A stretch of DNA of 38,716 bases from the IMG/VR virus record IMGVR_UViG_3300035698_018106, positions 1 to 38,716 of that record. One strand, 5' to 3'. The notes beneath the pieces were generated by a model. It saw only the letters and a program-made list of their open reading frames with translations, was not told the origin of the DNA and searched no databases. The translations under genes were made by a program, and so were the position numbers. Positions 3,516-36,708 of the stretch are shown here, in pieces; the first letter of the stretch is position 1, and every line of letters starts with the position of its first letter. This DNA is from a virus.

Positions 3516-5855
3516 ATGGGAAGAAATAAAGGAACATTTAATTTCGCTGCAAATTTTGAAGTTTTAACAAAAGCTCCATTAGATGCAAGAACTCTAGTTA
3601 GCTCTTACTCTGACTTAGTTGATCCTTTGACATGGAATGATGCAGATAGTCTTAGTTGGCTTTTTAACGGTGCATTAGTTGTTGTTATAGATGATCCATC
3701 TTCAGGTGTTTATATGTTAAAAGATGCTGCTAATTATAATTTATATAATAATTGGGAACAAGTTGGAGGAGTAACACCTAAAGATATAGAGGATTTATAT
3801 GATTATATTGACGGTTCTATTGCTTCATTAGATTCAAGTATAAATGATTTATATACTACATTAACTATAATAGATTCTTCAGTAAGTTACTTAATTGATT
3901 GGAATACTACACAAGATATAAGTATTGGAGATATTCAGGAATCAATCATCAAAATAGATTCAAGTATTAATGAATTATATTCCAAGCAATCAGGAGTTAT
4001 TAATATAGGTGATGGTTCTGCAAATATATTCGCTGGATATGATCCATCTAATAATATTCAATTAAGAACATTATCAGGTTCGGGAGCTGCTATAGTAACT
4101 CAAGTTGGTGATAATATAATTATTGGTTTGGATGCTTCTTTTGCAGGCGAAGTTAATTACGGTGTTAATGTTGGATCTGGAGATGCAAGTATATACTATA
4201 GAAAATTAGGTGATGAATTACAATTTAGAGAATTATCAGCAGGAACAAATATAACATTAGATGTTTCAGATAATTTAATTATAATTAATTCAATTGGAGC
4301 GGCTGGAATTGATGGAGGTGTTTGGATTACAGATATAACTCCTCAAGGTTCAGGGAATGTAGGTGATAAAACATTCTCATCAGATGGAAATGTTTTAGAT
4401 TCATGTTTATCAGATACCAATCAGTTATCTGTGCATATTCTAGCACTACCTGGTCACACTAATTATAAACCTATAGTATCTATTAACTCTAATCCTGTAA
4501 GTATCTCTGCTGATGCAGATAGACCTCTGTGGGAAGGTATATACAACCTTATATATAATCCTTTAGATGCTAGTATTACAGTTAAACATGAAGATGGTGC
4601 AACTTGGACAACAATTGTTGATCAAGATACTCCAGCGGTTATAACAAGTGCTATATTTGTTGGTGGATATCCAGGATCACAAACTGAATTAAAAGCAGGT
4701 GATTCTTATTCAATACAAATACAAACTGATGTACCCGTAACGTCTATTTCATTAGATAATTATGGAGCATTCTTAGCCGGAACATATTCTGTAAGTGGAA
4801 CAAATGTAAATATCACCGGAACAATAGCAGATAGAGGAAATTCTGTTCAAGATTTAGGATTTAGATTAAGTGCTATAAAATCAACAGGATCAGAAAGTTT
4901 AAAATATACTAGTATTGATTATGGTACTACTGATGGAATATACAGAGTTAAATTAAATAACATTTATCCAACTATTACGTTTGGAACAGTAACATATCCA
5001 GGAGTTCAAAAAGCTATTAAACTCGGAGAAACTGCATCGGTAGTTAATACAATAACTAATTACGATACAATGACATATAGTACTCCTAATTCAGAATTAG
5101 GAATAACTGCACCAACAACATTTGCGAATCCTAAAGTTGTTTCTTATTCAACTGGAACTTATAACATAACAAATTCTAATTTACGAATTGTAGCAAATAG
5201 AGCCGCTAATAATGCAACATCTACACAAAATAGTATAGTATGGATTGCTAATACGCCTGCTACATTATCTATTGCAAATCCTGCATCTAGATTACGATCT
5301 GGAGGAAATGATAATACATCTGCTCAAAATCACACCATTACAATTTCAGGTAATGGACAAAGATTATTACAAGCGCCTAGTTTAGTAAAAGATTCAGGCG
5401 GAACATGGATTGGGGGAGGATTTTCTTGGATAAATAGTGCCACATCTTTTACTAGATCACTTGAAGTCCATGATAATGATACAAAAGGATCATATACATG
5501 GGGAGCAATATCAGGTATTAATTTAGCAGGTATCACAACTACTGTTAATTCAGGAGAAACAACATATATATTAGGCGGGTTTGTTAATAGAACTATTACA
5601 GTTGCCCCCTTTGGTACAACTGGGATTATTAATACAGAAATATCAGATTATAGCAAAATACCTTCTACCTTAGCATGGACAGGAAAAGCATTAACAATAA
5701 AAGCAGGTATTGGTATAACTGCACCACCAGCCGTTGTAGGTGGTTGGTCAGCAAGTTCTACATTTACTAATCCAACAACTATAAATATACTTGATCTTGC
5801 TACTGCATCATCTGTTTCGGCTCCTAGTACATTTACAATACAAGAAAATATTTAA
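3516..5855 (+). CDS. Tail fibre / baseplate-attached structural protein, 779 aa
   Basis: Residues 1-82 (GTFNFAANFEVLTKAPLDAR, then a Trp-rich strand region and NYNLYNNWEQVG) form an N-terminal domain that often attaches such proteins to the tail. Residues ~87-157 are coiled coil (IDGSIASLDSSINDL, LIDWNTTQDISI), sharing the N..QD.SI motif with other fibres in the window. Residues ~160-260 hold two copies of a ~50-residue repeat, one with LQLRTLSGSGAAIV and one with LQFRELSAGTNITL. The remaining ~500 residues are Thr/Ser/Asn-rich beta structure with Ig-like character (GGYPGSQTELKAGDSYSIQI). No catalytic motif is visible. A fibre or adhesin role is inferred. It is co-directional with and close to both neighbours. 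Confidence 0.65.
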   Translation: MGRNKGTFNFAANFEVLTKAPLDARTLVSSYSDLVDPLTWNDADSLSWLFNGALVVVIDDPSSGVYMLKDAANYNLYNNWEQVGGVTPKDIEDLYDYIDGSIASLDSSINDLYTTLTIIDSSVSYLIDWNTTQDISIGDIQESIIKIDSSINELYSKQSGVINIGDGSANIFAGYDPSNNIQLRTLSGSGAAIVTQVGDNIIIGLDASFAGEVNYGVNVGSGDASIYYRKLGDELQFRELSAGTNITLDVSDNLIIINSIGAAGIDGGVWITDITPQGSGNVGDKTFSSDGNVLDSCLSDTNQLSVHILALPGHTNYKPIVSINSNPVSISADADRPLWEGIYNLIYNPLDASITVKHEDGATWTTIVDQDTPAVITSAIFVGGYPGSQTELKAGDSYSIQIQTDVPVTSISLDNYGAFLAGTYSVSGTNVNITGTIADRGNSVQDLGFRLSAIKSTGSESLKYTSIDYGTTDGIYRVKLNNIYPTITFGTVTYPGVQKAIKLGETASVVNTITNYDTMTYSTPNSELGITAPTTFANPKVVSYSTGTYNITNSNLRIVANRAANNATSTQNSIVWIANTPATLSIANPASRLRSGGNDNTSAQNHTITISGNGQRLLQAPSLVKDSGGTWIGGGFSWINSATSFTRSLEVHDNDTKGSYTWGAISGINLAGITTTVNSGETTYILGGFVNRTITVAPFGTTGIINTEISDYSKIPSTLAWTGKALTIKAGIGITAPPAVVGGWSASSTFTNPTTINILDLATASSVSAPSTFTIQENI

Positions 5856-14138: not shown

Positions 14139-14813
14139 ATGGCAATAGAAAGTATATACCATATAGATAAAACAGTATCGTTTAGAGAAACTTTTAATAG
14201 TGAAGTTGCTGTTAGAAATAATGGTGGTGTACCTACTGATGGTGTTTTGTTTGAAAATGGTATTATCACTGTAGATTTAAAAAATAATAATATTGAATAT
14301 CCAGTAATTTTAAAAAATAGTACACCGGAATTTTCAATATTATTTAGATTTAGAATAAATAGTTTATCTCCTGATAGTAATATTTATTTTTATAATGATA
14401 GTGGTACTAATGGTATACTTATTTATATGGGTCGTGAAGATGGAAAAATACGTTCATATATAAAAGCAAATGTAACTACAACTACTAATAGATATGATGA
14501 TGGTTTATGGCATGATTATATAATGACATATAATGGTACATCTTTTTCAGTTTATATTGATGGTGTATTTACTTCATCAACATCATCATATATCAGTAAG
14601 TCTAATAATACGTTTGTATTATCTGGTATAGATAGTGTTAGCACAAATTATAGTTCTGGTTCAATGGATTCTTTTGATATTTATGATAGAGAATTAAATG
14701 CAACAGAAGTGCAATTACTTTATAGTAAATCATTATATGTTAAACCAAAGACTATATTAATAAAGGGTTACCTAGTTTTTATAGCGAAGATACAAAGGCT
14801 TATTTATCTTTAG
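14139..14813 (+). CDS. ConA/LamG-like lectin domain protein, N-terminal part of a probable frameshifted gene
   Basis: Residues ~25-200 form a laminin-G/concanavalin-A-like beta sandwich: SILFRFRINSLSP, DGLWHDYIMTYNGTSFSVYI, DGVFTSSTS and the typical closing motif DIYDRELNATEVQLLYSK. Such domains bind glycans and are common on phage adhesins. The last ~25 residues in this frame (ILIKGYLVFIAKIQRLIYL) are out of character. The -1 frame takes over with LPSFYSEDTKAYLSLDTF, which continues the lectin-type sequence. The switch point coincides with A AAG GGT at 14762. The gene is therefore probably the first third of a ~619-residue three-domain lectin, joined by a programmed -1 shift or broken by a one-base deletion. 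A second ATG four bases upstream is out of frame. Confidence 0.7.
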   Translation: MAIESIYHIDKTVSFRETFNSEVAVRNNGGVPTDGVLFENGIITVDLKNNNIEYPVILKNSTPEFSILFRFRINSLSPDSNIYFYNDSGTNGILIYMGREDGKIRSYIKANVTTTTNRYDDGLWHDYIMTYNGTSFSVYIDGVFTSSTSSYISKSNNTFVLSGIDSVSTNYSSGSMDSFDIYDRELNATEVQLLYSKSLYVKPKTILIKGYLVFIAKIQRLIYL

Positions 14814-15997
14814 ATACATTTACAGATTATAAGATAGATAACTTTGAATTAATATTATCTGTACATTTTAAAAACGAGATAAGCGATATTCTTACAATGT
14901 ATTCAAATACAACTACTGGTAACGGGCAAGGTAAAGGTATTAGTTGTTTTTATAATGTATCACAATCTGAAATGAAGTGGGGTATTTTTAATAAAACAAT
15001 TGATGATGATGATGTAATACCAAATAAACTAACAACATATACATTAAAAGTGTATAATAGTAATATTTATTTATATAGAAGTGGTTTTGGTTTGATTAAT
15101 AACACAGTAACAATAGTAGACTGGAGTTCTACTGCAGGATTTTATTTAGGAGCTATTATACCAGAAGCTTTAAGCTTTAAAAGAGGTGATAAAAATATAA
15201 CAGACTTTAAATTTTACGAGTTAGATAGTTCTGGTAATAGAATACAAGAATTAATTAATTTAGATTTTGATCAAGAGATTGGAACAAATGTACCAAATAT
15301 TGCATTAGATGCACCTGTAAGTTCTGATGGATCAGTTATAGAAAACGGACAAACAACTGATTCTTATTGGCAGCAATATGATGGTTATGAAGAAGTATTA
15401 AAATTGACTGCTGAAAGGGGCGTTATTGAAAATAGAAAGAAAGGTGATTTTATAAATAATGGAGTAGATGTAATTAAAGCGGATAGCGTATTACCTGTCA
15501 TGAAATTTGAAAATGGAAATTATATATCTTTATCAGATATATCAAATATAAATATCAATAAAGCATTAGTTATTAATGTATGGGTACAGGCATTGTCTAC
15601 TGAAAATGGTATGATAATTTGTAAGAACCCTGTTAATACACAATGGCAATTAGCCTTTCAATCAGCAGGTCTTTATTATAAAGGCGGTGGGTCAACATCA
15701 GGTGTGGGCATATCAACTTATTTTTCAAGATTTTTATATAAATGGACCAATATTATACTCATACAACAAAATTCAAACGTATACATGTATATTAATGGTG
15801 TATTAGAAGCAACTAATGGAGTATATCCTAATTTTACTAATGATATAGGAGATATTACAATAGGAGTGTTTGGAACAAGTGGATACCCTTTACATGCTAA
15901 TGTTAATGATTTACAGATATTAAGTGGTATATCATCTGACCAAGAAAAGTATGCAGCACAATACTATAATAGTACAAAAAATAAATACGGATTATAA
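14744..15997 (+). CDS. ConA/LamG-like lectin protein, C-terminal part (366 aa from ATG 14897; frame open from 14744)
   Basis: The first ATG in this frame is at 14897, but the lectin-like sequence already begins upstream (LPSFYSEDTKAYLSLDTF, NFELILSVHFKNEI), so the gene appears to lack its own start and to continue the preceding ORF. Two ConA-like regions are visible: one spanning the junction to about residue 110 of the ATG form (TTYTLKVYNSNIYLYRSG), and one at ~195-360 (ALVINVWVQALS, NSNVYMYINGVLEATNG, LQILSGISSDQEKYAAQYY). They are separated by a linker with SSDGSVIENGQTTDSYWQ. The stop TAA overlaps the next ATG by one base (TAATG), so the next gene is likely translationally coupled. A glycan-binding adhesin role is inferred from fold and context. 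Confidence 0.65.
   Translation, partial: TKDYINKGLPSFYSEDTKAYLSLDTFTDYKIDNFELILSVHFKNEISDILTMYSNTTTGNGQGKGISCFYNVSQSEMKWGIFNKTIDDDDVIPNKLTTYTLKVYNSNIYLYRSGFGLINNTVTIVDWSSTAGFYLGAIIPEALSFKRGDKNITDFKFYELDSSGNRIQELINLDFDQEIGTNVPNIALDAPVSSDGSVIENGQTTDSYWQQYDGYEEVLKLTAERGVIENRKKGDFINNGVDVIKADSVLPVMKFENGNYISLSDISNININKALVINVWVQALSTENGMIICKNPVNTQWQLAFQSAGLYYKGGGSTSGVGISTYFSRFLYKWTNIILIQQNSNVYMYINGVLEATNGVYPNFTNDIGDITIGVFGTSGYPLHANVNDLQILSGISSDQEKYAAQYYNSTKNKYGL
14762..14768 (+). other. Frameshift site candidate, A AAG GGT
   Basis: In the reading frame of the upstream ORF the heptamer is A AAG GGT, fitting X XXY YYZ. A -1 slip gives AAA and GGG and continues as LPSFYSEDTK. Loss of one G from an original GGGG run would give the same peptide, so this may instead be an indel or a base-calling error. 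The -1 frame is open from 14744 and the upstream frame stops at 14811-14813. No strong downstream stem-loop was seen. Confidence 0.5.
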
Positions 15998-17931
15998 TGA
16001 GTAAAGTAGTAGATTATAAATTTTATAATGGTACACTTATTGAAAAATATAGTGGTACACAATTAACACCATCTACAATAAGATTTAATAAGATAAATGG
16101 TATTAATGCATTTGATACTAATACTACTGTCCCAATAATACAGTCTGATGTATTACCTAACACATTTGCAGGTAAGTCATATGGTTCAATAATTATATGG
16201 CATAATGATGTATTAGGTCTTTTAAATTTTTCATTTAATGTAGATGGTTTTGGTATGTATTGTTTTGGTGGTGGAGGATTTTATTATAACATAAATGCAG
16301 GAACTTCTGGCGGTGGTGGAACTGGTCCATATGATAATACATCAGGAACTAAAAATTTAAATCAATTAGTACTAATATTTGACGGTACACAATTGGTACA
16401 TGATGATGCATTTTATGGATATATGAATCTAAAAGCATTATCTTGGAATCTTGATTGGAATGGTACATTGCCTCATGTATTACCAGGTGATAGTGGAGAT
16501 ATTCGATATTATGGAAAAGATAAAAATTTAATTAGAGTACAATATTTTGATCATTTATTGACACAGTCTGAAATTAATTCTGACTATGGAGATTTGAAAA
16601 GTGCTAAATTTTTATCATTCCCAATTAAATATGATTATTTTTCAAAAAAAGGGTTAAAACCACCAACACAATATGATGGAAGTTTGGTATCTGCAATCAA
16701 TCCCAATAGTTTACAAGGAAAAGATGTTATTGATTTGAGTAATACACAACCAACACTTTTAAACGGGAATAATGGTTTATCTACATTAAATAATTCTATA
16801 CTACATAACGCACCAAATGATACATATGGCACTATTAATAATATAGCTTATGCTGATATAAAAACAATTTCATTTAGATTTAAATATTTCGGAGGGACAA
16901 GACTAAAAATCATAGGTAGTGGTGCGTTTGGTGTAATGCCAGTGAATGTTAATTCAACAAGATCATATGTATTATTAACTAATAATACATATGTTATATG
17001 GAGTCAAGCAGCATTAATAATAGGTGAGGAATATACATATACTTATTATTGTATGGGGGATGATAAGGATAAAATGTCAGAATGGAGATGCTGGAAAAAT
17101 GGTATTGAGTTAACACAATTAGCAGCAGTTGAACAAAATGATACTACAGGGGCATTTATAGATGAAATAGGTGGATCAACATATAGTACAAACTCTGATC
17201 CTGTAGAAATAAAAGAAATATTAATTCACGATAGATTTCTATCAAATAAAGAAATAATTGATTATCATAATAAATGGTCTACAGTAACTTTAAAGGAAGA
17301 TTTTAGACAATATCCTATAGGTACACACCCACAGGAATGGAATAAATTAGTCACTAGTATAAATGGTGATATGACTGTTTATGAATCAGATGGTACAGAT
17401 GGACTTAATTTAGGTGAACGATATTTATCTCATGATGATGATTCTGCAATTTCAACTTCTAGTGACCAAGCTTATGGCACATGGATATTTGAAGGTGTAG
17501 GGAAAAGTGCTGCATCAACTGCATATTTTTTTATTAATAGTTTACAAAATAAAACAAGTGCAGGTGGAAGTCCACAAACTTATTCTTTTATAATAGCTAG
17601 TCAAGAAGCATTACAATTTAAAGCTCAATCCACAACACTTTTTTCTACTGGAAATGACTTTTTCGATAATTCAAAATTATATGATTTTAGAATTGAAAGA
17701 TTAAGTTCAACAGGTTATTTTAGTTTAATTAAAGACCAAACATATCCTGCTCATACTTTTGCAATATGGTATAAAGAACATGATACGAATGAATGGATTT
17801 TAATACCAGTAACTACTGGGACTAATCCAATTACTAATTCAACATATCAAACATCAAAATATTTAGTGATGGGTAGTTCAACAGATTGGTTTAGAATTTC
17901 AAAATTATTATTATCGAGTGGGATATATTAA
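15997..17931 (+). CDS. Multi-domain ConA/LamG-like adhesin, 644 aa
   Basis: Three beta-sandwich units are visible. Residues ~1-200 have a Gly-rich insert (CFGGGGFYYNINAGTSGGGG) and end in VQYFDHLLTQSEIN. Residues ~205-425 end in EILIHDRFLSNKEIIDYHNK. Residues ~430-644 start with LKEDFRQYPIGTHPQEWNK and end KYLVMGSSTDWFRISKLLL. The F/H-D-R-x-L-S/T-x-x-E-I closing motif is typical of LamG-like domains. No hydrolase motif is seen. Start ATG overlaps the previous stop by one base, and the following small gene begins inside its last codons, so the set is likely co-translated. Probably a receptor-binding protein for surface polysaccharide. The specific ligand cannot be read from sequence. Confidence 0.65.
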   Translation: MSKVVDYKFYNGTLIEKYSGTQLTPSTIRFNKINGINAFDTNTTVPIIQSDVLPNTFAGKSYGSIIIWHNDVLGLLNFSFNVDGFGMYCFGGGGFYYNINAGTSGGGGTGPYDNTSGTKNLNQLVLIFDGTQLVHDDAFYGYMNLKALSWNLDWNGTLPHVLPGDSGDIRYYGKDKNLIRVQYFDHLLTQSEINSDYGDLKSAKFLSFPIKYDYFSKKGLKPPTQYDGSLVSAINPNSLQGKDVIDLSNTQPTLLNGNNGLSTLNNSILHNAPNDTYGTINNIAYADIKTISFRFKYFGGTRLKIIGSGAFGVMPVNVNSTRSYVLLTNNTYVIWSQAALIIGEEYTYTYYCMGDDKDKMSEWRCWKNGIELTQLAAVEQNDTTGAFIDEIGGSTYSTNSDPVEIKEILIHDRFLSNKEIIDYHNKWSTVTLKEDFRQYPIGTHPQEWNKLVTSINGDMTVYESDGTDGLNLGERYLSHDDDSAISTSSDQAYGTWIFEGVGKSAASTAYFFINSLQNKTSAGGSPQTYSFIIASQEALQFKAQSTTLFSTGNDFFDNSKLYDFRIERLSSTGYFSLIKDQTYPAHTFAIWYKEHDTNEWILIPVTTGTNPITNSTYQTSKYLVMGSSTDWFRISKLLLSSGIY

Positions 17932-22282: not shown

Positions 22283-24331
22283 ATGTCAAAACTTAATATT
22301 CAAACTGGTGTTATTGCCGGAAATGTAATAAAAATGAATGCAGATTTTAGTAATGCTCCACGGTTATTATTAAAAGGTATTATACCACCTCCTATAGTGA
22401 CATTTACAGTAAATTTAGATCAAATTAATGCTAATTTTACAACATTAAGCTTTATTAATTCTATATCTCAAGATGGTAGCACATGGACATTTGAGGAAGG
22501 GACATATCCAGAAGCAATAATAAATGAAGATGCTTCTTTAACAGCAGACGTTTCAATTCAATTCAGTACTATTACCCCTAATGATGGAGATTTTTCTTTA
22601 ATTGAAGATTCAACAAAACTATTAATAACAACTGATAATTTAGATAAGAATTATAAAATAAGAATAACATCTAAAAATCATTATTTATTAGAGTTTACTG
22701 GAGTTGATAATTTCAGCACCGGAAAGAATGTTAATGAGTATTTAGGTAAAAGTATTATAAACGCTGATTATACTAGTACTGATAAAATAGGAAATTCAGA
22801 ATTTATGATACCTAATACAGTTGTTGATCTTGATGGTGATTTTGTTAGTGGATCAAATGATGATGGAAATGCTCCATTTAAAATAGATGATTTGCAAATT
22901 TATGATTTAACTTCATATTCAGGAATTACAGATATTAATAAGTGGGTTTATGGTGAGGACCATGAACATCCAACATCGTGGTATTTAAATGAATCAATGG
23001 TAGGCGATATTAAAATAGATATAGAAATTTCTAAATTATTATACAAAGGAATTGTTTATCATCCAAATTATGTTACATTTAGTACAAGTAATAATTTTGT
23101 TTATGGGCCAGATGGATCATCTAATGGAATAACATGGGGATATGGATTTGATTATAATGGAGCTTATACAGCAGGAGTAGATTATGATTATATGACTTTT
23201 GAAATAGATGGTGCATACGATATATCCAGTATAGATAATTCAGTTCATGGATATATTGAATTAACTAAATCTATATCTGGAGATTATTTATCATTTGAAC
23301 CTGCGAATTATGAATTCCCATACACTGGATCTATTGATGTATCTTGTTATGCTACAACAGCTTCAGCAACATTTGAAGTAAATTTAGATCAAACTAATGC
23401 TAACTTCACAACGTTAAGTTTCACTAATTCTATATCTCAAGATGGTAGTACATGGACATTCTTAGAAGGTACTCAACCAATCGCAATAATAAACGAGGAT
23501 GCTTCTTTAACAGCAGACGTTTCTATTCAATTTAGCAGTATACTTCCAAGTGATGGAGATTTTACATTAATTGAAGATTCAACTAAATTATTAATAACAA
23601 CTGATGATGAAAATAAAAATTATAAAGTTAAGATAACTGCTAAAGATCATTATTTATTAGAGTATACTGGAGTTGATAATTTTAACACAGGCGAGAATGT
23701 CAATGAATATTTAGCTAATAGTGAGGTGGAAGCATATATTAATTATGCATATACAATAATAACAGATAAAATTGGAAATTCTGAATTCCTGATACCAAAT
23801 ATTAGTACTAGTACTGATATTTATATACAAGGTGATTTTATACCTACAGGAGGAGATCCTTTTTCTATAAATGATTTACAAATTTATGATGTAAGTAGTT
23901 ATAATGGATTAACTATTAGCGATTGGGTTTATGGTTCAGATCATAATTTACCAACAGCCTGGTATTTAGATGTTGCAATGACAGAAGATATAAAAATGAA
24001 TTTAGAAGTTTCTAAACTTCTTTATAAAGGAATTATATACCATGATGATAACCGAGCATTTGGTATTTCTACACCACATGTATATGGCCCTGAGGGATCT
24101 ACTAATGGAGAAACATGGGCTTATGCTCAGGACGAAAGGGGATCATATTCATCATCACTTAATGGAGTGATTTTATTTACAGATAATGGCTTTGAGGTAA
24201 CTGGAATAGATAATTCAGTAAATGGTTGGATTAGAGTCACTGTTGGAGATAAATGGATTGAGTTTGATTCACAAGAATATGAATTACCTTATACTGGATC
24301 TATAGATGTATCTTGTTTTGTTACTACATAA
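22283..24331 (+). CDS. Appendage protein made of a tandem 323-residue duplication, 682 aa
   Basis: After a 39-residue leader (MSKLNIQTGVIAGNV...) the protein is two copies of one unit, residues 40-362 and 363-682. Shared landmarks include NANFTTLSF, NSISQDGSTWTF, DSTKLLITTD, HYLLE.TGVDNF, KIGNSEF.IPN, NDLQIYD and SKLLYKGI.YH. Both copies end in PYTGSIDVSC. The unit is acidic and aromatic-rich with no catalytic motif that I can see. It could be a paired receptor-binding or scaffold domain. It is the last + gene before the antisense glycosyltransferase, and the two genes overlap tail-to-tail by 8 bases. The unit's family is not recognised. Confidence 0.6.
   Translation: MSKLNIQTGVIAGNVIKMNADFSNAPRLLLKGIIPPPIVTFTVNLDQINANFTTLSFINSISQDGSTWTFEEGTYPEAIINEDASLTADVSIQFSTITPNDGDFSLIEDSTKLLITTDNLDKNYKIRITSKNHYLLEFTGVDNFSTGKNVNEYLGKSIINADYTSTDKIGNSEFMIPNTVVDLDGDFVSGSNDDGNAPFKIDDLQIYDLTSYSGITDINKWVYGEDHEHPTSWYLNESMVGDIKIDIEISKLLYKGIVYHPNYVTFSTSNNFVYGPDGSSNGITWGYGFDYNGAYTAGVDYDYMTFEIDGAYDISSIDNSVHGYIELTKSISGDYLSFEPANYEFPYTGSIDVSCYATTASATFEVNLDQTNANFTTLSFTNSISQDGSTWTFLEGTQPIAIINEDASLTADVSIQFSSILPSDGDFTLIEDSTKLLITTDDENKNYKVKITAKDHYLLEYTGVDNFNTGENVNEYLANSEVEAYINYAYTIITDKIGNSEFLIPNISTSTDIYIQGDFIPTGGDPFSINDLQIYDVSSYNGLTISDWVYGSDHNLPTAWYLDVAMTEDIKMNLEVSKLLYKGIIYHDDNRAFGISTPHVYGPEGSTNGETWAYAQDERGSYSSSLNGVILFTDNGFEVTGIDNSVNGWIRVTVGDKWIEFDSQEYELPYTGSIDVSCFVTT
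22400..24328 (+). repeat. Tandem intragenic duplication, unit ~969 bp
   Basis: Unit 1 spans 22400-23368 and unit 2 spans 23369-24328. Similarity holds at protein level throughout, with long identical DNA stretches (for example over the codons for EDASLTADVS), while other parts have diverged by substitutions and short indels. Confidence 0.85.
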
Positions 24332-25124
24332 CATATTTACACCAGTTTGAATTATAAAAATGGGTATAAAATGCTTCTTGGGCTTTTATACCCATTTCTT
24401 TTAAATCGTAATCAGAACTAATAATTTTTTCCACCTCTTTAATATCGTTTGTCCAAAAAGAGAATTCATCCCATTTTATCTTATCTTTAAAACATCTTAT
24501 GTCTTCTCTTGTATAAATAAGAGGAACCGATCCTAACTGCATAGCTTCGTATATACGAATAGTATTATCAAACACCCCACCTGGACAATATGACATATAT
24601 GAAGAAGCTAGTATATCTCCATATGATTTAGAATATGGGGGAAATACAGTCAATCCATGATTGTCACTTAAATGATCCAATGATCTTTGTCTTAATTGTG
24701 ATGTTAGATTACCCATGAATGATATATGAATATTTTTAGATTTAGTGGATGATAATTTCCCCCCATGTATTAAAGGTATATGATGAAAATTCTTATATTT
24801 ATAAGGTCGTACACTCCCCCCTGAAAATATTTGAAATTTTGTATTTCTAAGAATTTTAGACCACTCTAATTCCATAGTATTAATAGTGAAAATCTTTTCA
24901 TGAGGTATGTCTCCAATTATATCTTCTAACCTATCAATAATTAAATGATTCTTATGACATTTATTCCAAAATATAGGTAGATAATATAGCTCCGGACCTT
25001 CATTTTCTAAAGCCCAATCATAAAATTGATCTTCTAGTGAATGATCTCCAAGAGCTTCTATTATTTTATTTCTTCGTTTATATAATTTAGGCCTATATTT
25101 ACTATCTATATTAATTATTTTCAT
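24324..25124 (-). CDS. Exostosin-like (GT47-type) glycosyltransferase, 266 aa
   Basis: The only minus-strand gene in the window. Exostosin-family features are visible: ELYYLPIFWN (46-55), a mid-protein HISFMGNLTSQLRQRSL (133-149), and the C-terminal donor-binding region SYMSYCPGGVFDNTIRIYEA (175-194), continuing MQLGSVPLIYTREDI and ending W-DEFSFW near 218-224. Glu193 in RIYEAM matches the conserved Glu of GT-B retaining/inverting exostosin-type enzymes. There is no signal peptide or membrane anchor, so it is probably cytoplasmic. At 266 residues it is shorter than cellular exostosins but typical of phage-borne versions. It may glycosylate virion adhesins or alter host surface sugars; neither is shown. 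It converges with the duplicated appendage gene (8-base overlap) and diverges from the fibre gene at 25173 across 48 A/T-rich bases, so it has its own transcript. Confidence 0.75.
   Translation of the reverse strand: MKIINIDSKYRPKLYKRRNKIIEALGDHSLEDQFYDWALENEGPELYYLPIFWNKCHKNHLIIDRLEDIIGDIPHEKIFTINTMELEWSKILRNTKFQIFSGGSVRPYKYKNFHHIPLIHGGKLSSTKSKNIHISFMGNLTSQLRQRSLDHLSDNHGLTVFPPYSKSYGDILASSYMSYCPGGVFDNTIRIYEAMQLGSVPLIYTREDIRCFKDKIKWDEFSFWTNDIKEVEKIISSDYDLKEMGIKAQEAFYTHFYNSNWCKYVM
24358..24400. terminator. Probable bidirectional terminator inside the glycosyltransferase 3' coding end
   Basis: Arms AAATGGGTATAAAA (24358-24371) and TTTTATACCCATTT (24384-24397) are perfect 14-base complements around a 12-base loop. 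On the + strand the stem leads into CTTTT. On the minus strand it leads into TTTTTATAATT. It lies 26 bases beyond the stop of the + gene, but inside the last codons of the minus gene. Confidence 0.65.
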
Positions 25125-28362: not shown

Positions 28363-29760
28363 ATGGCAAATTTAAAAGCCGGCACATCAATAGATGGATA
28401 TTTAGCTTTACATACAGATAATGTTCAAAATGTTAGTATTAATGGACCATTAACAATTGTTAATGATATAGATTCAGCAGGAGGTGGTACTAAAGGTATT
28501 ATAATTAAAAATACAGGATCTGGTGGTGAAGCCGCAGTCGCTTATAATAATTCTGTAACTGGTTCCAATTATTGGTTTACTGGTTTAAATGAATCTGGTA
28601 GTCTCCAATGGACTTATGGTTCTGCATTTAGTGGATATAATATGTTTCTTACATCTGCTGGAGTTTTAACAACTGCTGCAGGTATTACAGCTAATGGAAC
28701 TATTAATGCTGCCGGTGGATCTAGTTCCGTATCTAATATTATTTCAGCCGGAACATCTCCCTATAATGTATTATCCTATTCGGGTGGTGCTCAATCTATT
28801 ATAAAAAGATTAGATGTAGGAGGTGCAACACAAATAGGAGGTGATGAGGGATTATATTTATGTTCGGGTGAGGCTGGAACATCAGCTGTTGCAAATACAA
28901 CGGTAGCAAGTGAAGTAGTACATATTTGTTCAGATGATGTTATTTATATGTATTCTAATTTACAAAATGGATGGGCAAGTAGAAGTACTGCTTCGCTTTC
29001 AACAGCTGGAGTTTTTACAGCACCTTCTTTTAGTGGTGCTAATGTTACATCAGGATCAAATCCAGGTCATACACACTCTAATTATCTTACATCAAATCAG
29101 ACTATAACATTATCTGGTGATGTAACAGGATCAGGTACTACTGCTATTACAACAGTGGTTGGAGATGATAGTCACAATCATACAGGATCTACTATATCAT
29201 CATTAGCAACAGGTGATGTAACATCCGGAACATTTTCTGTAGCCAGAGGTGGAACTGGATTAGCTACTATTACAGCAAATAGAATTCTCACTGGTAATGG
29301 TACTAGTGCAATGACACAAGAAAGTGGTTTAACATATGGCAGTTCCGTTTTATATGTTTCTGGTGCAATTCATGCAACAGGTGATATAACCGCTTATTAT
29401 TCTGATATACGTTTAAAAACTGATATTGAACCTATTACAAATGCATTAGATAAACTTAACTCTTTAACTGGTTTTACATATAATGCAAATGATTTAGCAA
29501 AAGAATTAATACCAAATACCGATATAACCCGTAAAGTTGGTGTATCGGCTCAATCAGTTAAAGCTATATTACCAGAAGCTGTTAAACCTGCTCCATTTGA
29601 TTCAATTAATGAAGAAGGAGAAGTAGTAGAATCCATATCAGGAGAAGATTATTTAACAGTTCAGTATGAAAAATTGGTACCTTTATTAATTGAATCTGTT
29701 AAAGAATTATCAAATAAAGTAAATTTATTAGAGAAGGAACTTGCAGATATTAAAAAATAA
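28363..29760 (+). CDS. Tail fibre with C-terminal peptidase S74 intramolecular chaperone, 465 aa
   Basis: Residues 1-346 form a beta-rich fibre with Gly/Ser/Thr repeats, SGDVTGSGT and two HxH pairs (H236-T-H238 and H271-N-H273) of the kind that hold metal ions in T4 gp37-type tips. Residues 347-465 are a peptidase S74 / intramolecular chaperone domain starting SDIRLKTDIEP. Ser347 and Lys352 have the spacing of the Ser-Lys dyad known from the K1F endosialidase family, so self-cleavage before Ser347 is expected after trimerisation. Other domain features are TRKVGVSAQSVKAILPEAV and the closing helix LLIESVKELSNKVNLLEKEL. Mature fibre would be ~346 residues. It is the last gene of the adhesin locus, followed by a terminator. 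Confidence 0.9.
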   Translation: MANLKAGTSIDGYLALHTDNVQNVSINGPLTIVNDIDSAGGGTKGIIIKNTGSGGEAAVAYNNSVTGSNYWFTGLNESGSLQWTYGSAFSGYNMFLTSAGVLTTAAGITANGTINAAGGSSSVSNIISAGTSPYNVLSYSGGAQSIIKRLDVGGATQIGGDEGLYLCSGEAGTSAVANTTVASEVVHICSDDVIYMYSNLQNGWASRSTASLSTAGVFTAPSFSGANVTSGSNPGHTHSNYLTSNQTITLSGDVTGSGTTAITTVVGDDSHNHTGSTISSLATGDVTSGTFSVARGGTGLATITANRILTGNGTSAMTQESGLTYGSSVLYVSGAIHATGDITAYYSDIRLKTDIEPITNALDKLNSLTGFTYNANDLAKELIPNTDITRKVGVSAQSVKAILPEAVKPAPFDSINEEGEVVESISGEDYLTVQYEKLVPLLIESVKELSNKVNLLEKELADIKK

Positions 29761-34207: not shown

Positions 34208-34227
34208 CACTCAAATTTATTTGAGTG
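34208..34227 (+). promoter_or_regulatory. Hairpin between terminase and sheath genes
   Basis: CACTCAAA and TTTGAGTG form an 8-bp stem with a TTTA loop, followed by CAAAAAATAAAA rather than a T-run, so it is not a classical terminator. It lies 21 bases upstream of the sheath ATG and overlaps an in-frame GTG at 34225. It may be an RNA processing, stability or attenuation element. Confidence 0.4.
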
Positions 34228-34248
34228 CAAAAAATAAAATATACTAAT

Positions 34249-36708
34249 ATGGCAAGAATAGCATTAGATCTCTCTCAATTTAAATCAGCAGGTGTATACA
34301 CCGTTGAGGTTGACCAATCTGAAAGAATAACAGTAACTACTCAATCATTGAGATTAGTTCCTGGATTTTCTGCTCAGGGACCTTATAATGCCCCAGTTTT
34401 TATCCAATCAACTAGAGATTTAACAAGATTTTTCGGACCAATAGATAAGAAATTAGAACGTAAAGGATCTTTCTTTCAAAGATCAATCCAAACATGTTTA
34501 TTAACAGCACCTATATTTGCTATTAATTTACTTAATGTAAATGAAGTTAATAATACTAGTAATCAAGATAGAGTTGAATTTATTCCTTTATCTACTGATT
34601 CAAGTACAATTAACAGTCCAATTGTTGATGATATATACATTAACTTTTTCAATAGAGAACGTTTTTGGAAAGCAGATCCTGATTATTTACAAGGTGTAGT
34701 TAATAATAGTGTGGCAGCATCTAATGATTTAAGTGCTCCATTATTTTCTGTATCAAATATAGGTACAAAAGATTTATCTTTTATCATAAGAAAAGCTACT
34801 GGATTAGCAGGATATGGCGTTACAGCAAAAGATTGGTACGGTAATGAATCAAACATTCCTTATGAGTGGATAAGACCATATGATTTAATGTCGGATTATT
34901 TTATACAAGTTATTGCATTCCAAGGAAAATGGGATAATTATGATCAATTATCTACAGACCCTTATTATTCAGAATTCTTTAATTCAAAAGGTCTTATACC
35001 TTCAAAAATTAATGATTTTATGAATGCTGATAATGTTAATCTTGTTGGATCATGGACAGGTACAATTATTCCTGATTTTAAAGATCAAACAGGATCAGAA
35101 CAATATATTGAACCAATTATTAATGGTTCGGTTGCTTTAACTGGAGTATTTTGTAATGTTAATCAAGATGCATTAGACCAATTAATATGGGATGAAAATC
35201 AAAATAGATGGGAAATTGGAGATGGATCTTCTGAAGAAGCTGCTCCTTATTTAGTTGACTTTATTGGACATAATTTAATTAATAATGGTGGAGCAACTGG
35301 TATCTTAGGCGATACGTCTACATCATTCTTAAGTTATTCTATTGATGTTAGTAATAATGTTCTTCATAATTTAGTAGATATTAATGTCATTGGAACTTCA
35401 GGAAAGATATTTAGTATTGATTCATCAATTAATGCTGATCTTATTGGCGTTGGTTCTTATGTTAAATCAAATGCAGAAATACAACCAGGTATTACTAGAG
35501 TAACTGATAAATATTATGATGCTTCAAGTTATATAATAGAAACTGCTGAGGAAGCTGATTATATATCAGATCAACTTACTGTTCAAAAACCAATAGAAGA
35601 TCCTTCTATTAATAAAGCATATAAGATGATCCAATTAGATGGATTAAATATAACTAATAGACATACTCCTGGATTTGATTTAGAAGGTGCTAGAAATGCT
35701 GAAGAAGGCCTTAATAAGATATATGTAATGTTACATGATCAAGGAATTCTTAGAGGATTAACAAATCCTGATATGATTAATTTCCGATATGTAGTAGATA
35801 CAATGGCAAATGGATTACAAACTAATATGGGTGGTAAATCTTGGTTATCTTCATTAGCAAAGAAAAGAGGTAAATGTACCGCGATTATAAATGCACCTTC
35901 CATTAAACAATTTGCTGCTTCTCAAAATCCATATTTTGTAGACACATTTGTTGCAGGAGTTGATCCAACCCCTATTTTTAGTACAGAATATATTCCACAA
36001 GGTGGAAACTCTGACATGCCTAGATCATTTAAATTCACTCTTCCTAATGAAGAGTTAGGATCTAAATATTGTGGTGTATTTGGACCATTCTTAAAATATA
36101 ATGAAAATGGAAAACTTATTGATGTTCCACCAGCAGCAGATGTAGCTAACGCTTATGCTAGAAAATTCTTAGGAGGAAATCCTTATGCAATTGTTGCAAA
36201 TAGAAATGGAATACTTTCTAATCCAGCATTATCAGGAGTAGAATATATGATAGATAAGACTGATAGAGATTATTTAGAACCATTTGGTTATAATTCAATT
36301 ATAGAACGCCCTGCTACAGGACAAACTATGATATATGCGAATGCTACTGCATTCCAAAATGTAAAAAGTGATATGAATAACTTACACGTTAGAGAATTAC
36401 TTAATACATTAGAAATTCAAATAGATGAAACATTACAAGGATATGTATATGATTTTAATAATCCAATTACTCGATTAAATATTGTTAATTCAGTTGCCCC
36501 AATTCTAGAATCTGTTAAAGATGCCGGAGCAATAATTAAATATGAATTAACTATGGATGATTCAAATAATTCTAAAACAGTTATTGATGATGGATTTGGA
36601 ATTATCGATATCGATTTATGGGTTACTGGAGCACTTACTAAAATTGTTGCTAGATACTCTGTTAATTCTGAAGGTTCAGTTAGTGCAGGTGGATTCGCGG
36701 CAAATTAA
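34249..36708 (+). CDS. Contractile tail sheath protein, gp18-type, 819 aa
   Basis: The sheath subunit polymerises around the tail tube and contracts on infection. The N-terminus (KSAGVYTVEVDQSERI, PGFSAQGPYNAPVFIQSTRD) carries the sheath opening typical of myoviruses. The C-terminal domain, about residues 530-819 (KSWLSSLAKKRGKCTAIINA, FLGGNPYAIVANRNGIL, MNNLHVRELLNTLEIQI, FNNPITRLNIVNSVAPILE), is the conserved part that interlocks subunits. Longer than T4 gp18 (659 aa); the excess lies in the variable middle (about 100-430), which is usually exposed on the sheath surface. ATG at 34249 is preferred over an in-frame GTG at 34225, because it begins MARIALDLSQF and clears the hairpin. It directly follows the large terminase and precedes the tube gene. 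Confidence 0.93.
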   Translation: MARIALDLSQFKSAGVYTVEVDQSERITVTTQSLRLVPGFSAQGPYNAPVFIQSTRDLTRFFGPIDKKLERKGSFFQRSIQTCLLTAPIFAINLLNVNEVNNTSNQDRVEFIPLSTDSSTINSPIVDDIYINFFNRERFWKADPDYLQGVVNNSVAASNDLSAPLFSVSNIGTKDLSFIIRKATGLAGYGVTAKDWYGNESNIPYEWIRPYDLMSDYFIQVIAFQGKWDNYDQLSTDPYYSEFFNSKGLIPSKINDFMNADNVNLVGSWTGTIIPDFKDQTGSEQYIEPIINGSVALTGVFCNVNQDALDQLIWDENQNRWEIGDGSSEEAAPYLVDFIGHNLINNGGATGILGDTSTSFLSYSIDVSNNVLHNLVDINVIGTSGKIFSIDSSINADLIGVGSYVKSNAEIQPGITRVTDKYYDASSYIIETAEEADYISDQLTVQKPIEDPSINKAYKMIQLDGLNITNRHTPGFDLEGARNAEEGLNKIYVMLHDQGILRGLTNPDMINFRYVVDTMANGLQTNMGGKSWLSSLAKKRGKCTAIINAPSIKQFAASQNPYFVDTFVAGVDPTPIFSTEYIPQGGNSDMPRSFKFTLPNEELGSKYCGVFGPFLKYNENGKLIDVPPAADVANAYARKFLGGNPYAIVANRNGILSNPALSGVEYMIDKTDRDYLEPFGYNSIIERPATGQTMIYANATAFQNVKSDMNNLHVRELLNTLEIQIDETLQGYVYDFNNPITRLNIVNSVAPILESVKDAGAIIKYELTMDDSNNSKTVIDDGFGIIDIDLWVTGALTKIVARYSVNSEGSVSAGGFAAN

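Follow-up and report, generated by a model that had tools for sequence, protein, structure and literature searches.

The window examined here, the whole 38,716-nucleotide stretch (38.7 kb) at the beginning of a virus record of 322,902 bases, contains a pair of lectin-type reading frames followed by a third gene on the same strand. They lie inside a tail/baseplate gene cluster, between a sheath gene at 3516 and an S74 fibre gene at 28363. The features of the locus are as follows:

14139-14813, forward strand: ORF1, the N-terminal part of the adhesin in frame 0, running from an ATG to a TAG at 14811-14813 (224 aa)
ORF1 residues 53-192, forward strand: LamG/concanavalin-like domain (PF13385, E 5.9e-18)
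14744-14810, forward strand: region open in both frame 0 and frame -1, the sole stretch where a switch can fall
14762-14768, forward strand: A_AAG_GGT, an in-frame X_XXY_YYZ heptamer and potential -1 slip site, a function not supported here
14768-15997, forward strand: ORF2, the frame -1 reading, with a middle module and a C-terminal LamG domain; the ORF as listed begins at ATG 14897
14768 to ~15450, forward strand: middle module of ORF2, with no Pfam match
15509-15943, forward strand: C-terminal LamG domain of ORF2 (Pfam)
15997-17931, forward strand: ORF3, the next gene, joined to ORF2 by a TAATG overlap

The phage is a Lak-related jumbo phage; the sheath gene at 34225 has its nearest counterparts among phage records in the Prevotella Lak megaphages (~40% identity), and the terminase is 41-75% identical to those in 38 IMG/VR contigs with the same gene block. 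Two distinct tail sheath genes are present in the window, one (3516-5855) resembling phiKZ-like sheaths (PhiPA3, 45%) and the other (34225-36708) resembling Lak/T4-like sheaths. The tail cluster also includes a single antisense gene (24324-25124, reverse strand) with matches to exostosin/RXYLT1-type glycosyltransferase domains. The large terminase of many relatives is broken at the same codon, at residue ~123, with inserts of up to ~2 kb (L012, L013, L027, L028, L030, L032 and L036), which suggests introns or homing elements; the copy in the window carries no interruption.

Both ORFs match the LamG_3 profile (PF13385) above its curated cut-off of 27.6 bits, with scores of 65.9 bits for ORF1 and 30.4 bits for ORF2. 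The original prediction of two lectin frames thus stands, with the qualification that the lectin domain of ORF1 is already over at residue 192, ahead of the junction, and the next Pfam lectin lies at 15509-15943, which places the junction in an inter-domain linker. AlphaFold2, run on the -1 product with no alignment supplied, gave an uninformative model (pLDDT 32).

Frame -1 contains stops until 14741 and is then open from 14744 to 15994. No ATG, GTG or TTG occurs in this frame between 14744 and 14897, and its earliest ATG, at 14897, stands 45 codons past the AAA at 14762, just as had been claimed. Reading AAA GGG and then TTA yields ...ILIKG followed by LPSFYSEDTKAYLSLDTF. The dicodon scores flip sign at the junction (-11.1 bits for frame 0 and +8.3 for frame -1 over 14768-14810, and +13.6 bits for frame -1 over 14811-14896), indicating that frame -1 is the coding frame past the junction and already codes far upstream of its earliest start codon; the earlier proposal that the two frames encode one protein holds. 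The same statistics show a coding switch near ILIKG, but they place it only within ~14748-14771, with no single base resolvable. The statement that frame -1 takes over 'exactly' there is accordingly too strong, as the switch could fall anywhere in 14744-14810.

The stop codon of ORF1 is a TAG, which ends 8 of the 212 real genes of the genome and accounts for 42% of the stop codons that appear when real genes are read in the +1 frame. As TAG is rare at real ends and common out of frame, the stop at 14811 looks accidental rather than like a selected gene end; this counts against two separate genes, but does not discriminate an indel from recoding. Lak phages use alternative coding, and the ~50 tRNA genes of the present phage include one with a CTA anticodon (L063:3430-3503, at ~260.3 kb of the record) that could be a TAG suppressor. 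Recoding of the TAG itself was considered as a cause of the break and rejected, because the continuation lies in a different frame and same-frame continuation is seen at 0 of 16 TAG stops; despite the CTA-anticodon tRNA, the phage genome shows no sign of TAG read-through. A second copy of the adhesin locus was found neither in viral_contigs, using a junction pattern with a variable gap, nor in the phage records.

Direct searches detected no close homologues of ORF1 or ORF2. Searching viral_contigs with peptide patterns of all three ORFs, and genome_contigs with an ORF2 pattern and the ORF1 profile, brought up no orthologue and only remote LamG matches, and tblastn and blastn against phage records gave nothing useful. 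A survey of LamG domains in Lak-like records led to a 73,030-base relative (G057, the source of L140), in which the adhesin orthologue, on the reverse strand of locus L171, is one uninterrupted ORF of 663 aa, and the order of the genes is the same. Orthology was required to rest on gene order and both protein ends, and a shared LamG domain alone was not counted. Residues 4-202 of ORF1 align with the N-terminus of the 663-aa ORF (residues 3-197; 31% identity, E 5e-22), and residues 229-409 of ORF2, its C-terminal 181 aa, align with residues 486-663 (26%, E 4e-8). The 663-aa ORF overlaps the next ORF, whose start (MSKV...) resembles that of ORF3, with 48% identity across the first 25 residues and weaker matches beyond; the whole-length comparison with ORF3 falls short of significance, and this gene is probably an ORF3 homologue. 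The alignment to relatives that the original prediction had called for, here to one relative, therefore finds both ORFs in a single frame, and supports the view that ORF1 and ORF2 are parts of one adhesin gene. As the middle modules of the two proteins differ, the junction is not alignable. The homology to this relative ends at residue ~202, just ahead of the junction, which puts the frame break at a module boundary.

The A_AAG_GGT heptamer is present and in frame, as predicted. The same motif (A_AA.G_GG.U) is in the set that gives >0.10% frameshifting in E. coli without stimulators (PMC4066793). In 156 long genes of the phage genome, in-frame X_XXY_YYZ motifs occur at 0.94% of codon positions and in 16% of random 22-codon windows, and A_AAG_GGT itself is in frame 8 times. 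As stimulators we considered a Shine-Dalgarno-like sequence 6-17 nt upstream or a stable structure beginning 4-10 nt downstream. No Shine-Dalgarno-like stimulator is present, since the 30 nt upstream of 14762 contain no GG, and the downstream sequence folds no better than its shuffled versions (z -0.91 and +0.46). The best rule-conforming downstream hairpin (-14.8 kcal/mol, 101 nt) formally satisfies the -7.6 kcal/mol rule and amounts to 0.15 kcal/mol per nt; the corresponding values are 0.317 +/- 0.114 across conserved clusters of enterobacteria and 0.452 +/- 0.124 at sites of the IS3 family (PMC4066793). Nor are the motif and the out-of-frame arrangement seen to be conserved: the sole orthologue found, in one relative, is an unbroken ORF whose middle module differs. 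Programmed -1 frameshifting at 14762 is not supported. Some known frameshift sites do lack stimulators.

A genome-wide scan for start-less frame joins exposed a -1 join at ~48,742 on the reverse strand (L052:10328-12045), which is shared by about 16 phages (relatives L112-L118, L125, L129-L131, L135, L137, L138 and L143). The upstream ORF has a hydrophobic N-terminus and ends in ...KKA or KKV, and the slip sequence AAAAAAA-G-C/T-N has a TAG right after it in nearly all relatives. The -1 frame is start-less and runs for 96-147 codons to a conserved C-terminus (...DGVEVVDVKAI...). Every member of this subgroup has a covarying 7-11 bp hairpin that starts at the stop. Of its 112 arm positions 111 pair, where 300 shuffles averaged 77 and never exceeded 84, and a single position shows as many as five pair types. 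In other relatives this C-terminus is read in frame, a second -1 join lying at an A8-A9 run close to the end, or is wholly fused. The join is in all likelihood a genuine programmed -1 frameshift, apparently previously undescribed; the word frameshift does not occur in the Lak papers that a full-text search brought up. The site shows how a -1 frameshift signal looks in Lak-like phages and served as the positive control for the adhesin junction.

Among the conserved genes of the record (79 ORFs, ~76 kb), 0 frame breaks were observed relative to the relatives, pointing to a low error rate. Stray breaks, which served as the negative control, are seen in the record and its kin in three settings. 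A gene at ~186,453 is split at an A7 run, and is a single ORF in L187 (55% identity through the break) and L188; an FkbM methyltransferase gene at ~201,650 is split at another A7 run, over which the Pfam profile is continuous; and the tail sheath genes of the related records L007, L011, L020 and L023 show frame breaks or in-frame stops. A similar join occurs at an A8 run at ~299,768 of the record (L065). The breaks at ~186,453 and ~201,650 (L059, L060) appear to be stray indels or mutations with no sign of a programme; tail sheath genes have no reason for recoding, and their breaks gauge record quality. The notion that every break in the record is recoding was rejected, as the ~186,453 gene is one ORF in two relatives, and so was the notion that every break is an error, as the ~48.7-kb break is a conserved frameshift signal.

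These observations make it probable that the locus is one adhesin gene and that a single-base indel, either an error or a real mutation, interrupts it at a linker between modules. The gene itself is real; it would extend over 14139-15997 and comprise an N-terminal lectin module, a middle module and a C-terminal lectin module, and the break in the assembled record would fall in the linker that joins the first of these to the second. The indel may be an assembly or base-calling error, or a real, non-programmed mutation in a fast-evolving host-recognition gene. An indel is favoured because the same record has comparable breaks in genes that relatives, or a Pfam profile, show to be unbroken elsewhere, and the adhesin gene is itself continuous in the L171 relative; we infer a cause shared by the adhesin break and the other stray indels. 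Speaking against it, the other stray breaks are at A7-A8 runs whereas this one lies in AAAGGG, with runs of three, the conserved genes of the record point to a low error rate, and a canonical heptamer prone to frameshifting in E. coli falls at the junction. The one-base change of the original prediction is favoured, with sequencing error and real mutation kept as one joint reading. The sequence as written would yield a 224-aa one-lectin protein, and the presence of the full protein in virions would depend on whether the phage really has the indel. Two separate genes, with ORF1 a complete one-lectin protein and ORF2 starting from ATG 14897 or from some non-AUG codon that escaped recognition, are a very improbable arrangement: the whole LamG domain of ORF1 does precede the junction, relatives have one-lectin open frames of 222-280 aa and an ATG is available, but frame -1 is coding well ahead of that ATG, the orthologue is fused and the stop of ORF1 is the rarely used TAG. 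Phase variation classically targets adhesins, and a phase-variable homopolymer, which would toggle the long adhesin in the population, had been suggested; a phase-variable tract would be a mononucleotide run of ~8 or more at the break, and the GGG or AAA found there is far below the lengths that mutate at high rate, with dozens of G4-G5 runs in the rest of the window, so that this explanation is hardly credible.

Programmed -1 frameshifting at A_AAG_GGT, which would yield two adhesins at a fixed ratio, one short with a single lectin and one long with several modules, and have arisen in this lineage by an out-of-frame module swap, we regard as unlikely. The canonical heptamer within the switch region, its activity in E. 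coli, the use of an apparently genuine -1 frameshift at ~48.7 kb by the same phage, and a break at the module boundary at which the match to the relative runs out, comparable to the situation of Ig-like extensions (PMC5009743), all fit with it. They are set against the single-ORF state of the only orthologue, a heptamer with a 16% probability of occurring by chance, the lack of a Shine-Dalgarno-like sequence and a weak hairpin, leaving the motif alone of the originally proposed signal. A lineage-specific form is retained because heptamer and module boundary fall together; for phage Ig-like extensions, capture of a module out of frame and its later rescue by recoding have been proposed in just this setting (PMC5009743). 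A lectin module might have been swapped in out of frame and rescued by -1 frameshifting, so that virions mix one-lectin and multi-module adhesins and recoding is newly born at a host-range boundary; this particular history is rather doubtful. Were the site programmed, recoding would control a receptor-binding protein of a huge uncultured phage. The single-base indel is our preferred reading, and it carries a caution that single-base breaks in metagenomic phage records can mimic recoding and that a slippery motif is weak evidence by itself.

The join at 14762 shares its genome and direction with the 48.7-kb site of the Lak-like phages, but has none of the A7 run, the immediate stop, the covarying hairpin and the conservation in ~16 phages that mark the latter, and its hairpin energy of 0.15 kcal/mol per nt compares with 0.36-0.38 there, in the same genome and in a relative. 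In phage structural proteins, -1 frameshifting is used to append C-terminal domains, as in the T3 coat protein, Lactobacillus phage A2 and the Ig-like extensions (PMC5009743). The adhesin locus likewise combines a short protein, a -1 extension with a further binding domain and a slippery heptamer at a module boundary; it differs from them in the absence of a stimulator and of conservation, and in having an orthologue fused in frame. It is also comparable to multi-LamG (PF13385, concanavalin A-like) phage tail adhesins in having LamG_3 domains at both ends, a place in a tail/baseplate cluster and a one-ORF orthologue in a relative, with the distinction that the linker here carries a broken reading frame.
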